Source of the DNA: Chitinophagales bacterium
GTDB lineage: Bacteria > Bacteroidota > Bacteroidia > Chitinophagales > Chitinophagaceae
Reading direction: 5' to 3'
DNA: 54,563 nucleotides
Assembly (NCBI GenBank): GCA_025353485.1
Contig: JANXQO010000004.1
Location: forward strand, 1-54,563
In this document: piece by piece, positions 14,203 through 51,630 of the stretch
Layout: every line of letters begins with the position of its first letter
Position numbering within the stretch: the stretch's first letter is position 1
Program-made: the position numbers and the translations under genes
Notes under the pieces: generated by a model
Seen by the model: the letters and a program-made list of their open reading frames with translations, nothing else
The model's database searches: none
Told to the model about the DNA's origin: nothing

Positions 14203-14621
14203 AAGCCTATCCCGCCACAAGGCACATCCTCACAAACTTCCATTAGATACGAATGATTTTACTAAAACCCTTCCCGAAAGGAAGGGTAGAAAGTTAAATC
14301 TTCTTATATTCAAGTTTCCCCTTCGGGGAACAGGGGGCTTTGCAGTAAAAGCCCATCCCTTTGAATCTTTTATTAAAGTACAAGTTTTCACTAAAGCCCT
14401 TCCCGAAGGGAGAGGTGGATAGTCTATTCTTATTTTCAATCTCTATTTATTATAACTCAAGCTTAAAAAAAACTGACAAACTTTAAATGAAGAAACGATC
14501 TAAGTCCCCCCTTCGGGGGACAAGGGGCTTCAGGCAACATAATCCTTAGAAGTATCCTCTTTACTAAAACCTTTTATTATATTTAGGGCGGATAACCAAT
14601 TCCCGTTTCAATACAATTCAC
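14203..14621. repeat. Palindrome-rich spacer with four GC-rich units
   Basis: No gene seen in these 419 bases. It holds four short hairpin units in an otherwise AT-rich stretch: 14267-14287 (ACCCTTCC/GGAAGGGT), 14316-14340 (TTCCCC/GGGGAA then CAGGGGGCTT), 14397-14410 (CCCTTC/GAAGGG) and 14505-14530 (CCCCC/GGGGG then CAAGGGGCTT). Units two and four share the layout C-run, TTC loop, G-run, ACA, GGGGCTT, which also occurs at 48965-48996. They are dispersed repeats, not a CRISPR: spacing is irregular and no constant direct repeat is present. Confidence 0.75.
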
Positions 14622-46888: not shown

Positions 46889-47254
46889 TTAATACTGTCC
46901 TGTGCTAAGTAAAACCAATGTGCAGGCTTCCATTACTTCAATCCCGTTTTGTTTTGCAAGTGTATATAATTCATCATTTTCTGTACCCGGATTAAATATT
47001 ATTCTTTTGGGGTTAAGGGAGAGAATATAATCGTAATACTGTTTTTGATTTTGGGGATTTAGATAAAGCGTTATTGTATCAATGCCCTCAATTGGCTTTT
47101 GTTCTGTATCAATTTCTATATCTCCGGCTTTACCTTTTCGTTTACCTATACCAATTACAGTGTGATTAAATTTATTTAATTTATTTACAGCAAGGTAACT
47201 GTAGCGTTCGGGGTTAGATGAAGCACCCAATACCAATGTTTTTTTATTTTCCAT
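46889..47254 (-). CDS. CoA-binding domain protein
   Basis: A 121-residue Rossmann-type CoA-binding protein: LVLGASSNPERYSYLAVNKL at the nucleotide loop, HTVIGIGKRKG, and IIFNPGTENDELYTLAKQNGIEVMEACTLVLL at the end. Stand-alone proteins of this type are widespread; function unknown. It is last in the run of genes that follows the polyketide locus. Confidence 0.9.
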   Translation of the reverse strand: MENKKTLVLGASSNPERYSYLAVNKLNKFNHTVIGIGKRKGKAGDIEIDTEQKPIEGIDTITLYLNPQNQKQYYDYILSLNPKRIIFNPGTENDELYTLAKQNGIEVMEACTLVLLSTGQY

Positions 47255-47268
47255 ATTGTCATATTGTC

Positions 47269-47282
47269 CCGATAGCTATCGG
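47269..47282. repeat. Palindrome CCGATAGCTATCGG
   Basis: Perfect 14-base palindrome between the CoA-binding and DCC genes. Same core as in pyrD (12461-12476). Confidence 0.75.
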
Positions 47283-47293
47283 ATGTTGGAATA

Positions 47294-47692
47294 TCAGTTC
47301 AAAAATCTTGCCTTTAATTGGGGTGTTGGTATCATACATTCATCTTTCTTTCCAAACCATTTATAACGGTTTCTTGCTACCAAATCATATATACTATCTC
47401 TTAAAATTTTTGGTATGATTATAAAGCTGTACAGCATCGGGAATATTCCATTTAATTTTTTTGCAACCTTTAATGCACCGGTTGATCTTGTGTAAGCCTT
47501 GTTGTTTTCAATAAGGATAAAAGAATTAAGTTCATCAGGCGGGAAATTATATTGGGCTAAAAGCTTTTGCCCTGTTTCAGATTGTAAAGAGGTAAACATG
47601 AAAGTATTTTTTTTATCGTGCCTGATTATAAACTGAACTGCACCATTGCATAAATTACAAACACCATCAAATAATATGATTGGCTGATCCAT
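47294..47692 (-). CDS. DCC family thiol-disulfide oxidoreductase (DUF393)
   Basis: A 132-residue protein with the family-defining start IILFDGVCNLCNGAVQFIIRHDKK (CNLC redox-type motif, about 11-14), then FTSLQSETGQKLL. The family is thioredoxin-like by name, but its substrates are poorly known. It lies 12 bases after the FAD oxidoreductase gene on the same strand, so it may belong to that transcript. Confidence 0.9.
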   Translation of the reverse strand: MDQPIILFDGVCNLCNGAVQFIIRHDKKNTFMFTSLQSETGQKLLAQYNFPPDELNSFILIENNKAYTRSTGALKVAKKLNGIFPMLYSFIIIPKILRDSIYDLVARNRYKWFGKKDECMIPTPQLKARFLN

Positions 47693-47704
47693 ACTGTAAA
47701 GTTA

Positions 47705-48883
47705 CTAAAATGGCTTTCCATGTGTTGATGTTATTAGCCTGCGGATGATAAAAGGAAAAGGCTTTACAACAGAGATAAATATATTGGTACTAAATTCCTT
47801 TCCAAAAAGGCGTTGTATCATTCTTCCCATGCGCAGCCTGCCGCTAAATCGGGCCTTCCAATTTTTTGCATATTGGTTTTCCATTTGTTCTCTGCTTATC
47901 TTCTTTTGTAAAAAATTATCAATGCATTTAAATGCGATCTTACTTCCATGAAGTGCCATGCTCATACCATTGCCACAAAGCGGGGTTATCATTCCTGCGG
48001 CATCACCAATCATCAATGCATTATTTTCTATCTGTAATTTTTTATCAAAACTTATTTGCGAAATGGTGACAGGAAATCCCGGTAAAAAATCAGCCGAAGA
48101 AAATATTTGTTTCAAAAATTTATTTTTTTGCAAAATATTTTTTTCCATTTCACCGATTGAATTATTATTCGCTTTTAAATTTTCTGCTGTGGTAAGATAA
48201 CAGAGACAATATTTGTCGTCTTCTATTTTAGAGATTCCGCAATAGCCATCTTTAAAATTATGAAGTGCAATTGTATCTGCCGGCAGATTAGTTTGTACAT
48301 GATATTTGATACCGATATAGTTATTAAGCTTATTTGATTTTTTTTGAACAAAACCCCTGGACCATTTTATATCAATATTACTTCGCTTGCCAAATGTGCC
48401 TGCAACAACTTTTGATTTAACTGCAAAACCCGAAGTTGAAATAGTAAATAACCCATCTTTAAAAACTATATCATTCACTTTTGTTTCTTCATAAATTTTT
48501 ACACCGGCTTGCCTTGCAATTTTGCTTAACTCATTATCCAGGGTATATCTGCTGATACCAAAACCCCCTAATGGTAATGCCTGCTCAATGTATTTTCCGT
48601 TGGGAGAAGAAACAAGTAATTTTTTAATGATGGGTAAATTCATTTCGTCTAAATTCAATCCAAGATTTTTAATAAAATCCCAACTTTCCAAACTGATGTA
48701 TTCGCCGCAGACTTTATGAAACGGATATTTTTCTTTTTCAAATAAACCAACATTATAACCAGCCTTTGCTAATTGAATTGATAAAGAAAGCCCTGCAAGT
48801 CCGCCACCAATAATAGATACAACCCCCTGTCCCCCAACGGGGGAACTTAAATTTGAAATTTCATTGGTAACAAGTGACTCCAT
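47705..48883 (-). CDS. FAD-dependent oxidoreductase of the type III PKS locus
   Basis: A 392-residue flavoprotein of the geranylgeranyl reductase/aromatic hydroxylase fold. The FAD-binding GGGLAGLSLSIQLAKAG (about 27-43) is followed by GLFEKEKYPFHKVCGEYISLE, and the second FAD motif is MIGDAAGMITPLCGNGM. The first ~22 residues (up to SSPVGGQGVVSI) are encoded by a GC-rich palindrome that replaces the usual short start. It probably hydroxylates or reduces the polyketide product, as flavoproteins do in other alkylresorcinol loci; the exact reaction is unknown. Confidence 0.88.
   Translation of the reverse strand: MESLVTNEISNLSSPVGGQGVVSIIGGGLAGLSLSIQLAKAGYNVGLFEKEKYPFHKVCGEYISLESWDFIKNLGLNLDEMNLPIIKKLLVSSPNGKYIEQALPLGGFGISRYTLDNELSKIARQAGVKIYEETKVNDIVFKDGLFTISTSGFAVKSKVVAGTFGKRSNIDIKWSRGFVQKKSNKLNNYIGIKYHVQTNLPADTIALHNFKDGYCGISKIEDDKYCLCYLTTAENLKANNNSIGEMEKNILQKNKFLKQIFSSADFLPGFPVTISQISFDKKLQIENNALMIGDAAGMITPLCGNGMSMALHGSKIAFKCIDNFLQKKISREQMENQYAKNWKARFSGRLRMGRMIQRLFGKEFSTNIFISVVKPFPFIIRRLITSTHGKPF
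48820..48848. repeat. Palindromic element encoding the FAD oxidoreductase N-terminus
   Basis: CCCCC-AAC-GGGGG (48831-48843) preceded by AACCCCCTGT. In reverse it reads G-run stem then GGACAGGGGG, matching the units at 14316 and 14505. Confidence 0.85.
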
Positions 48884-48964
48884 TCTGTTATAAATCTAAA
48901 ATTTTATATTACTAAAAGGAAGTGCAATATTATATAGAGTAACTTATAATTATTACCATCAATT

Positions 48965-48996
48965 CTAAGTTTCCCCTTCGGGCGACACGGGGCTTA
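48965..48996. repeat. Palindromic element at the methyltransferase 3' end
   Basis: TTTCCCCTTCGGGCGACA then CGGGGCTT, the same layout as the units at 14316 and 14505. It encodes the last codons and stop of the methyltransferase. Confidence 0.75.
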
Positions 48997-49678
48997 CAAT
49001 TAAATACCTGAATGCCCATTTCCATTTGATAGTATAATTTTTGATAGCTGCAGTATTAAAAATATTTTCCCATTCCATTTTTTTAAACCCTCTTAAAACA
49101 GAAAGTGGTGCATCATTTTTTACCAGATACGACCTGGAGAAAATTCTTGTTGCAAGTTTAATAAAATGATATGCTAACGGATGCCGGTGAAGATCATTGA
49201 TAAAAAAACCAAGTGTTGAATTTCTTTTCATCCATTGAAGCATTGTAATTAATTCTTCATTAGTAAAATGATGACAGAATAAAGAAGCGAAAATTATATC
49301 TGGTTTATCATTTTCAAAATCAACATTTTTGTAATCAGTACTAATAAAATTTTCATCAGGTATTGACGTATTTTTTTTTGCATAAGAAATGCAATCAGGA
49401 TTAATATCAATTCCGGTAAATTTTACATGAATTTTTTTTTTACTGCAATATCTGTAAATAGCATTCAGGTTATCGCCGCCGCCACAGCCAATTTCGCATA
49501 CTGATATAGTATTTCTTTCACCAGCTAATTTTTTAAATCCTTCTATCGTTATCTCATGGCCACCGAGACGGGTATTAATAAAATCGAGTTCTTTCATGTT
49601 CTGCTGAATATCTGCAAAAGGGATATCATCTCTGTCTAATAATTCTTTTTGGTATGAGCGATTGGTGAAATCAGTCAT
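48965..49678 (-). CDS. Class I SAM-dependent methyltransferase of the type III PKS locus
   Basis: A 237-residue methyltransferase. ATG 49678 is chosen because it overlaps the PKS stop by 8 bases; the upstream open frame would lie inside the PKS gene. The SAM loop is SVCEIGCGGGDNL, then FTGIDINPDCI, and IIFASLFCHHFTNEEL. The last residues (VSPVSPEGET) come from a GC-rich palindrome at the gene end. It likely methylates the polyketide on oxygen or carbon; target unknown. Confidence 0.88.
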   Translation of the reverse strand: MTDFTNRSYQKELLDRDDIPFADIQQNMKELDFINTRLGGHEITIEGFKKLAGERNTISVCEIGCGGGDNLNAIYRYCSKKKIHVKFTGIDINPDCISYAKKNTSIPDENFISTDYKNVDFENDKPDIIFASLFCHHFTNEELITMLQWMKRNSTLGFFINDLHRHPLAYHFIKLATRIFSRSYLVKNDAPLSVLRGFKKMEWENIFNTAAIKNYTIKWKWAFRYLIVSPVSPEGET

Positions 49679-50768
49679 GAGATAATATGAATGTCTCAAG
49701 GGTAAGGCCGGGACCAAATGCTGCGCCTAAGATATTTGCTTTTTTAGTTGGAGTATTCTCTAACTCATTCATAATTTCTTTCAATACAAATAAAATTGTA
49801 GGAGAAGACATATTGCCATAATCTCTTAATACATTGTATGAATGTTGTAATGCTTCGGATGGAATATCAATACTTTTTTGAATCGAACTCAATATTTTTT
49901 TGCCTCCGGGATGTACACACCAATGGCTTATATCCTCTTTATTATAGCAGGCATGCTGCAATGCATTTTGAGTTAATGAATTAAAATCTTCTTCAATAAG
50001 ATCCGGTATATAACCGGAAAGTGTCATCAAAAACCCTGAAGAAGATAATTCCCAGCTCATATCTTTTTTACCTTTAAAAGCAACTTGAGAATAGAAATCT
50101 TTTATTCGTAGCCCATCCTCTTTATCATTATCATCTGTAACTAAAACTGCGGCTGAGCCATCACCAAATAATAAGCTTGATGTAATATTATCAGTTGAAT
50201 TTTCTTTTTGAAAATGCAGCGTACAAAGCTCCGTACACACTATAAGCACTTTTGCTTTTTTATCATTATTGCAAAATGCATCTGCCAGTTTAAGTGCATG
50301 AATAGCCGCATAACATCCCATAAAATTTACAGATGTTCTAAAAATATTGTTAGGCAGATCCATTGCTTCCATTACCTGCAGATCCAGGCCGGGAGCGCTT
50401 ATACCGGTGCACGTTACGGTGATAAGATGGGTTATCTCATCTTTATTTATTTTATTCTCAATACATTTTTCAATAGCAGAAACAGAGAGTTGCGGCGCAG
50501 CCTTGTTAAACCATTTCATTCTTAATTCAAGATTGGGAAAGGGTTCAAGATTTTCTGTTGCAGGATAAAATGCCCAGTCATTTGCAGATAAACCATAATC
50601 GGGGAGCACAGAATATCTTGTATTAATTCCGCTTTGATGATAAAGAAATTTCATTTTTCTTTTATCAACTTCATTCATTGCATATACATTCTGCATAAAA
50701 TTGAGAATGCTTGTCTGCTCATGTTTATAGGGCGGAACTGCGGTTGCTATGGAAACTATCTTACTCAA
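49671..50768 (-). CDS. Type III polyketide synthase
   Basis: Homodimeric ketosynthase that extends an acyl-CoA starter with malonyl-CoA and folds the chain into a resorcinol, pyrone or phloroglucinol ring. The 365 residues carry the complete triad: Cys152 (NFMGCYAAIHAL), His286 (CVHPGGKKIL) and Asn319 (YGNMSSPTILFVL). TCTGISAPGLDLQV and LFGDGSAAVLV also match. The start overlaps the UbiA stop by 8 bases and the stop overlaps the methyltransferase start by 8. The starter is probably a fatty acyl-CoA, by analogy with bacterial alkylresorcinol synthases. Confidence 0.95.
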   Translation of the reverse strand: MSKIVSIATAVPPYKHEQTSILNFMQNVYAMNEVDKRKMKFLYHQSGINTRYSVLPDYGLSANDWAFYPATENLEPFPNLELRMKWFNKAAPQLSVSAIEKCIENKINKDEITHLITVTCTGISAPGLDLQVMEAMDLPNNIFRTSVNFMGCYAAIHALKLADAFCNNDKKAKVLIVCTELCTLHFQKENSTDNITSSLLFGDGSAAVLVTDDNDKEDGLRIKDFYSQVAFKGKKDMSWELSSSGFLMTLSGYIPDLIEEDFNSLTQNALQHACYNKEDISHWCVHPGGKKILSSIQKSIDIPSEALQHSYNVLRDYGNMSSPTILFVLKEIMNELENTPTKKANILGAAFGPGLTLETFILSHD

Positions 50769-51630
50769 TCAGTCGTAAAATTAATAAGGTGATAAATCCT
50801 GCGTTTGTACATGTTGAAGCTAATATATTCATACGCATTGTGTTCTTAAAATTTGCTTCTTTAGTATTAATTAACACTTTGCGAAACCAAATAAAGAAAT
50901 ATACGAGTACAGGAAACATAAAGATTTGTAATATCAGAAATTGGTTCCATTCAATATTTGAAAAAAATAATATACCTAACATACAGAAAGCTAAAGCATA
51001 TACGATGCCAGTAAAAATAAAAGTGCCTTTATATCCTAATTTATAACTGATGGTTCGCACACCATCTTTCAGATCATCTTGATGCTGGTAAATTTGCGTG
51101 AGCGGATAAAAGCCACCGATCAGCAAACCTGCAGCTATAATGGCTATTACGGGAACATGAGAAGTATGGTTGCTTTGGCTCCCATGATAAACTAAAAAAA
51201 ATGTAACTGCTCCCTGGAAAATCACAACCGTGAGATAACCTGTGAGGGGGTATTTTTTTAGTCTGATCTTTCTATAACTATAAGCTCTTGATGCAAGAAT
51301 GTATAATACAATTCCCAAAGCAAAAATGGGAGTTATTAAGAAGCTTAGACTAACTGCAACCACATCCATAATTACCGATACATAGAATAATTGCTTTGTG
51401 GGTTGTAAAGGATTTTTTATTCCGCCAATACTACCGGTATCCTTATCCATATAACTGTTGTAGCCGTTGCTTGAAGGATATACCAATACATGCAGAATGA
51501 TAAATATCAAAATTGCATCACGCCAATTAATTTGATTTACCTGGCTTAATGCAAACCAAAAAACCGGCATTAAAAAAAATGAGAAATGAAAACGAAGAAG
51601 TTGTAAAGTGGAACGGAGAGTAATATTCAC
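50761..51630 (-). CDS. UbiA family prenyltransferase of the type III PKS locus
   Basis: An integral membrane prenyltransferase of 289 residues with about eight helices. The two aspartate-rich motifs that bind prenyl diphosphate are present: NGYNSYMDKDTGSIGG (about 56-71) and YQHQDDLKDGVRTISYKLG (about 187-205). It is the first gene of the tight PKS run and overlaps the PKS start by 8 bases, so its acceptor is probably the aromatic product of that enzyme. A role in menaquinone or heme A synthesis is less likely given the coupling. Confidence 0.9.
   Translation of the reverse strand: MNITLRSTLQLLRFHFSFFLMPVFWFALSQVNQINWRDAILIFIILHVLVYPSSNGYNSYMDKDTGSIGGIKNPLQPTKQLFYVSVIMDVVAVSLSFLITPIFALGIVLYILASRAYSYRKIRLKKYPLTGYLTVVIFQGAVTFFLVYHGSQSNHTSHVPVIAIIAAGLLIGGFYPLTQIYQHQDDLKDGVRTISYKLGYKGTFIFTGIVYALAFCMLGILFFSNIEWNQFLILQIFMFPVLVYFFIWFRKVLINTKEANFKNTMRMNILASTCTNAGFITLLILRLIE

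Follow-up and report, generated by a model that had tools for sequence, protein, structure and literature searches.

The window analyzed here is a stretch of 54,563 nucleotides from a Chitinophagales bacterium of the family Chitinophagaceae (contig JANXQO010000004.1, positions 1 to 54,563 of the forward strand). It carries on its minus strand a compact module of four genes, encoding a membrane protein of the UbiA superfamily, a type III polyketide synthase (PKS), a class I S-adenosylmethionine (SAM) methyltransferase (MT), and an FAD-dependent oxidoreductase (Table 1). An initial annotation, made from the sequence alone, had read these genes as a locus for a prenylated polyketide, possibly a quinone-like membrane lipid. 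Re-reading of the window gave the same coordinates for the four open reading frames and the same 8-base overlaps between the UbiA and PKS genes and between the PKS and MT genes. The TTG start of the PKS gene is supported, because its orthologues start at the identical residue. As shown below, the four genes are a genuine pathway, widely conserved in many Bacteroidota.

Table 1. Features of the four-gene module and their positions in the window
Feature	Position	Strand	Remarks
UbiA-superfamily membrane protein, 289 aa, GTG start	50761..51630	-	Pfam PF01040; variant-motif subfamily
Type III PKS, 365 aa, TTG start	49671..50768	-	PF00195 98.9 bits, PF02797 86 bits
Class I SAM MT, 237 aa from ATG 49678; 250 aa from TTG 49717	48965..49678	-	Methyltransf_25 47.6 bits
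FAD-dependent oxidoreductase, geranylgeranyl-reductase/QhpG-like superfamily, probable ring hydroxylase	47705..48883	-	NCBIfam matches below cut-off; in 72/80 named loci
8-base overlap, UbiA stop / PKS TTG start	50761..50768	-	TTGAGTAA
8-base overlap, PKS stop / MT ATG	49671..49678	-	ATGACTGA
UbiA motif I, N58-S-Y-M-D62-K-D64	51439..51459	-	canonical NDxxDxxxD, last Asp gone here
UbiA motif II, Y175-P-L-T-Q-I-Y-Q182-H-Q-D-D186	51073..51108	-	two ApUbiA Asp positions are Tyr and Gln
PKS catalytic triad codons	Cys152 50313-50315; His286 49911-49913; Asn319 49812-49814	-	

Conservation of the module in Bacteroidota

A collection of named loci was scanned with a UbiA profile, and the best 80 of at least 581 candidates were kept. 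As they were picked by UbiA, they test the neighboring genes and not UbiA itself. In 72 of the 80, the UbiA, PKS, MT, and FAD genes followed each other in this order and all on the same strand. The other eight consisted of UbiA alone (four), UbiA-PKS (three), or UbiA-PKS-MT (one), with the sequence stopping 102-1146 bases past the last core gene. Cultured carriers among the named loci were Niastella, Segetibacter, Parafilimonas, and Ginsengibacter. The DCC and CoA-binding genes, initially annotated as further members of the locus, are present but are bystanders: they occurred in 4 and 26 of the 80 named loci, respectively (some of these loci being short), and neither was found in 49 class-level loci. 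No fifth common gene emerged from the class-level loci, where the next most frequent family was seen in 13 of 83.

At the family level, a PKS match at E<=1e-20 was found in 98 of 195 genomes, and the 30 best PKS loci (with 1.5-kb flanks) contained UbiA in 30 cases, MT in 29, and FAD in 28. We also inspected 40 wider family loci, chosen by hand across the identity range, four of which (L072-L075) hold only a distant PKS. UbiA adjoins the PKS in 34 of the remaining 36 and is absent from L064 and L070; both MT and FAD are missing from L048, and FAD alone from L069. In two of the four loci with a distant PKS (L072, 4175-10423, and L073, 4071-10327), FAD, MT, and PKS genes (28-42% identical) precede a set of reductase-, dehydratase-, ketosynthase-, acyl carrier protein-, and phosphopantetheinyl transferase-like genes (assigned by eye from the N-termini), an arrangement that suggests coupling of the type III PKS to a pathway resembling that of fatty acids.

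PKS and UbiA were then searched separately in 395 genomes of the window's class (presumably Bacteroidia), with cut-offs that we set at E<1e-55 for PKS orthologues and E<1e-40 for UbiA; a further set of matches, found in 36 genomes with E from 1.6e-44 to 3.3e-33, was treated as distant PKS and not counted among the orthologues. PKS was found in 75 genomes, spread over 27 families (hand count), and UbiA in 78; 74 genomes had both, 1 had PKS only, 4 had UbiA only, and 316 had neither at these thresholds. In the lone PKS-only genome (G245), two UbiA fragments lie next to the PKS. Among 76 places with a PKS, UbiA lay within 5 kb in 69 (51 on the same strand, 18 on the opposite one) and elsewhere in the genome in 7. 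The tree distances of the four proteins were also correlated (63 loci, Mantel r 0.73-0.80, a level reached by none of 999 shuffles), as expected from co-inheritance but also from plain vertical descent.

The class sample (74 of 75) pointed to UbiA being obligate for the PKS, but a sample of 395 genomes from the whole phylum shows that it is not. With the PKS cut-off at E<1e-55 and the UbiA cut-off at E<=1e-15 (single window protein as query), PKS was found in 109 genomes and UbiA in 58, all 58 of which had PKS. A UbiA profile search was run on 79 chosen genomes (51 with PKS and no UbiA match, 26 with a distant PKS only, and G062 and G069). It added three UbiA genomes, all of family f90 (G642, G650, and G662, 169-299 bits), and left 48 of the 109 PKS genomes devoid of UbiA; four matches of 48-55 bits, in one PKS genome (G686) and in three with a distant PKS only (G681, G772, and G817), were not counted. 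Because nearly all genomes in this profile search had been chosen for carrying a PKS, the dependence rests on the 58 of 58 from the unselected search. The PKS-negative genomes were searched with the single window UbiA, which may miss a divergent UbiA. The share of PKS genomes lacking UbiA differed by group: none of 23 in the class of the window, none of 3 in family f79, 10 of 45 in f90, and all 38 in twelve other families.

In 20 loci taken from the UbiA-less PKS genomes, no UbiA-like open reading frame was called. Thirteen of them have PKS, MT, and an FAD-type enzyme (the latter weak in six, E 1e-4 to 1e-16), four have PKS without MT or FAD (one being cut by the contig end), and three gave no PKS call under a crude open reading frame filter. 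All 12 f90 PKS loci inspected contained PKS, a distant MT (20-26%), and a flavoprotein-like open reading frame of a different type (GGGxVG motif, identified partly by eye). The most telling result is thus that the dependence is one-way: UbiA was found only with PKS, and PKS often without UbiA. Since UbiA depends on the PKS and not vice versa, UbiA most likely tailors the PKS product. The PKS-MT-FAD trio, being present in families that lack this UbiA as well, looks like an older core to which UbiA was added as a dedicated tailoring step.

The encoded proteins and the altered UbiA motifs

The PKS contains both Chal_sti_synt domains of Pfam (N and C) and the Cys-His-Asn triad of type III PKSs. 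This triad, initially annotated as intact, was identical in all 85 aligned PKS sequences. The best NCBIfam match was DpgA (159 bits, far under the cut-off of 425), which is uninformative on the product because the other PKS of the genome scores alike (161 bits). That second type III PKS, on contig C94 (L132, 6247-7795), is 28-31% identical to the window PKS and adjoins an ICMT-family methyltransferase, with which it probably forms a pyrone-type pair; such PKS/methyltransferase pairs are named BpsA/BpsB. A type III PKS is common to BpsA/BpsB and the window module, but it is the C94 pair that BpsA/BpsB resembles. No homologue of the module UbiA, MT, or FAD enzyme was found in the 14 kb around the second PKS.

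The MT gave 125 bits with PRK06202 (cut-off 243), and its residues H149, H150, N174, and R178 (250-aa numbering) were invariant in 73 of 73 sequences. The FAD enzyme matched several FAD families in Pfam and, under the cut-offs, two NCBIfam models (TIGR02032, 93.9 bits for a cut-off of 158.8, and QhpG, 69.5 bits for a cut-off of 240). Matches of PKS, FAD enzyme, and MT to solved structures gave no pointer to a product. A defense-system reading was rejected, as PADLOC returned one partial MT match (mad2, E 5e-10) and one weak FAD match.

The 5' end of the FAD gene holds a G/C-rich repeat (AAGTTCCCCC...GGGGGACAGGGGG, 48821-48849, minus strand), a second copy of which lies at 14501-14529 on the plus strand; these two matches in the window compare with none in 100 shuffles. 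The first copy encodes an N-terminal insert of the FAD protein, residues 11-19, where 65 of the 67 FAD proteins in the alignment show a gap. The 3' end of the MT gene seems, by eye only, to hold a degenerate inverted copy.

The window UbiA scored 67.3 bits with PF01040, for a curated cut-off of 34.2, and belongs to the superfamily. We compared its motifs in 84 aligned UbiA sequences, with ApUbiA (PDB 4od4) and the genome's own MqnP-like UbiA as references. Both Asp-rich motifs had been described as intact, and this proved wrong: they are replaced by a conserved variant, N58xxxD62xD64 and Y175...Y181Q182H183..D186. The first motif reads NSxxDxD instead of NDxxDxxxD, with N58 and D62 each conserved in 82 of 84 sequences and S59 and D64 each in 81; the position of the last Asp is variable (G66 in the window UbiA, Asp in 6 of 84). 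In the second motif, two of the aligned Asp positions are occupied by Y175 (83 of 84) and Q182 (80 of 84), and one Asp, D186, is retained (83 of 84). R123 (83 of 84) and K125 (81 of 84) are conserved too, in what is presumably the region where UbiA enzymes bind diphosphate. The reading as a UbiA-type terpene cyclase was rejected: a hallmark of such cyclases is that motif I lacks its middle Asp, and this residue (D62) is kept in 82 of 84 sequences.

An AlphaFold2 model of the window UbiA, made with an alignment of 68 sequences (window and related loci), reached a pLDDT of 96.4 and a pTM of 0.93; from the single sequence, the pLDDT was 47. The predicted structure has the all-helical UbiA fold. 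Its best matches in the PDB by Foldseek were AfUbiA (4tq4) and ApUbiA (4od5), with TM values of 0.68-0.74. There were 15 matches at E<=0.001, headed by AfUbiA with dimethylallyl diphosphate and Mg2+; their titles included a UbiA homologue, a DGGGP/archaeal lipid synthase, a UBIAD1 complex, and a membrane phosphoribosyltransferase (PRTase), which also has a UbiA fold.

The variant signature was also present in UbiA proteins of family f90 that are only 24-33% identical to the window UbiA and lie away from the PKS (six of six inspected), where it reads NS(Y/W)WDKDEGPIGGLK and YPxSQxxQxxED. As such distant proteins share it, the variant motif is, judged on sequence, the mark of a UbiA subfamily. 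In the f90 loci concerned (L223-L228), the PKS is elsewhere in the genome. In two of them (L225 and L226), the UbiA gene is divergent from a gene for a protein of about 300 aa without Pfam match (in L225, also without NCBIfam match), and in L226 it is near a Thioredoxin_9 gene.

Proposed pathway and alternative readings

We consider it somewhat probable that the four genes form one pathway for a prenylated, methylated, ring-oxidized lipid of the alkylresorcinol type. By analogy with its family, the type III PKS would extend a fatty acyl starter with malonyl-CoA and cyclize the chain to an alkylresorcinol-type phenolic lipid. The MT would methylate the ring or a phenol oxygen, and the FAD enzyme would hydroxylate the ring to give a hydroquinone, oxidizable to a quinone. 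UbiA may then transfer to this phenolic lipid a prenyl group from the diphosphate made by the housekeeping polyprenyl synthases, two of which are encoded in the genome. The product, the prenyl donor, and the prenylation itself are what we infer here. Of the initial reading, the notion that the four genes belong to one pathway is supported by the gene order, by the co-occurrence of the genes also when they are unlinked, and by the one-way dependence; the intact motifs and the additional members did not hold, and the idea of a prenylated polyketide from such enzymes is not new (see below).

Several observations weigh against this proposal. The UbiA motifs have other residues at three of the canonical acidic positions, and the use of a prenyl diphosphate is therefore not assured; with the motif altered, the donor and the reaction are less certain than had been assumed. 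The association in the class, strong as it appears (Fisher p 4e-74), is uncorrected for phylogeny, and in family f90, as mentioned, 10 of 45 PKS genomes lack UbiA. Furthermore, 10 of the 85 class genomes with any UbiA match (E<=1e-15) have no PKS orthologue, most of them having weak or partial matches or being incomplete. They comprise the four UbiA-only genomes, G537, which is 99% complete and has no PKS at E<=1e-30, and G419, G471, and G569 (61-89% complete); G256, which is 100% complete and has a 111-residue UbiA fragment (50% identity); G507, in which UbiA is a piece at a contig end; and G204, G231, G303, and G335, with UbiA proteins 30-33% identical, that of G231 (L129) being devoid of the variant signature. 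Finally, loseolamycins A1 and A2 of Micromonospora endolithica were found by NMR to be unprenylated despite a UbiA gene near losA, in work in which only losA was activated, in a heterologous host (PMC7587189).

A first alternative, which we hold to be unlikely, is that the UbiA-fold protein has the PKS product as its substrate but does something other than standard prenyl transfer, the altered metal site reflecting another donor or reaction. The UbiA-fold phosphoribosyltransferase uses a sugar donor, and the membrane PRTase 8j8k was indeed among the Foldseek matches, more weakly (TM 0.52) than the prenyltransferases, which gave the best ones. The replacement of the three acidic positions is itself conserved and recurs in the distant f90 subgroup, which agrees with a changed reaction, but N58, D62, D64, and D186 remain, and so do R123 and K125.

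A second alternative, somewhat less likely again, is that the product of the module is a methylated alkyl-hydroquinone or resorcinol lipid without a prenyl group, and that UbiA works in another process, which only goes along with this pathway. Pathways of this kind are exemplified by the hierridins and by SrsABC of Streptomyces. The trios without UbiA in 13 of 20 loci fit this possibility, as do two genomes of the window's own family (G062 and G069) with PKS, MT, and FAD and no UbiA, neither with the protein nor with the profile as query, and the 7 of 76 class cases in which UbiA is unlinked. It is opposed by the finding that UbiA occurred in the phylum only alongside PKS (58 of 58) and that in most class loci the two genes are neighbors, often overlapping.

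That the window UbiA could, as its superfamily membership allows, be the MenA/MqnP, the heme O synthase, or the EboC of the cell, lying beside the PKS by chance, is very improbable and largely contradicted by the data. The genome encodes five PF01040 proteins including the window UbiA. Among the others are a CtaB (TIGR01473, 251 bits for a cut-off of 210), a TIGR01475 protein with MqnP-like similarity (284 bits, cut-off 181), one protein similar to geranylgeranylglycerol-phosphate transferases (below the cut-offs), and one without assignment; two PF02621 matches fit the futalosine route to menaquinone. The window protein is therefore not the sole MenA or heme O synthase candidate of the genome; had it been so, the initial annotation would have been refuted. 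Its highest score with an NCBIfam model was 29.4 bits, well short of the cut-offs, and it did not match the EboC model NF035940 at E<=0.001. Its Pfam neighbors are PKS, MT, FAD, glyoxalase, and TonB_C rather than ebo genes, and a housekeeping role is also at odds with the 316 of 395 class genomes that have neither gene at the cut-offs applied. Identity with MenA, MqnP, CtaB, or EboC/UbiA-297 was therefore rejected.

Returning to the prenylated lipid, it is possible, though we would put the chance well below even, that many Bacteroidota regularly contain an as yet undescribed lipid, either a prenylated phenolic lipid or a lipoquinone, and that it is made by PKS, MT, and FAD enzymes together with a UbiA whose metal site works in a way (N..DxD, Y..YQH..D) unlike those of all characterized UbiA enzymes. 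If this is true, about one-fifth of the sampled class species (75 of 395 with PKS) would produce a phenolic lipid of a meroterpenoid-like kind, which might serve in the membrane as a redox-active lipid in addition to menaquinone, and the UbiA subfamily would show that UbiA chemistry can run without the standard Asp-rich ligands.

Comparison with known systems

Open-access searches, whose coverage leaves out most subscription journals, returned among the matches listed no literature on this Bacteroidota module or its product. The flexirubin genes darA/darB of Bacteroidota belong to a different route (PMC3072089). UbiA-297/EboC, a farnesyltransferase of marine Flavobacteria, is like the window protein a UbiA-like enzyme of Bacteroidota and acts on aromatic acceptors, but it lies among ebo genes and carries a motif resembling DxxDxxxD (PMC9235831), whereas the window UbiA gave no EboC match.

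The losA region of Micromonospora endolithica has UbiA, a putative MT, and a type III PKS in one 24-kb fragment; it differs in having an acyl-CoA dehydrogenase gene between MT and PKS and, in the gene listing available, no FAD hydroxylase (PMC7587189). The hidABC genes of cyanobacteria and the MT-oxidoreductase-PKS operons of planctomycetes have in common with the module a three-gene core, PKS, MT, and FAD being adjacent here (PMC10896814, PMC8086630). This core is without UbiA, and HidA-C were likened to the module by gene content only. The planctomycete operons, which are related to hidABC, make alkylresorcinols (PMC10896814), and a prenyltransferase is encoded in one hierridin-like cyanobacterial cluster, that of Raphidiopsis, a feature reported to be unique to it (PMC8086630). 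A membrane-bound UbiA-type enzyme that O-prenylates a small polyketide is cited in PMC4044012.

The Agq cluster of Actinoplanes missouriensis resembles the module in bringing together all four kinds of genes, found here in order in most named loci, the UbiA activity being predicted. AgqA-D are a PKS, an MT, a flavin enzyme, and a membrane prenyltransferase. The products are reported to be alkyl-O-dihydrogeranyl-methoxyhydroquinones (Awakawa 2011, cited in PMC10896814 and PMC4044012). Because of this precedent, a prenylated polyketide made by such a set of enzymes is not new. The Agq cluster belongs to Actinobacteria, and the likeness drawn here is in the kinds of genes and products described. 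The alkylresorcinols formed by AgqA are prenylated and hydroxylated (PMC10896814). Thus, the four-enzyme idea is already known from Actinobacteria. What appears to be new, as far as the literature searched shows, is the variant UbiA subfamily with its motif, the one-way manner in which it depends on the PKS, and its wide occurrence in Bacteroidota.

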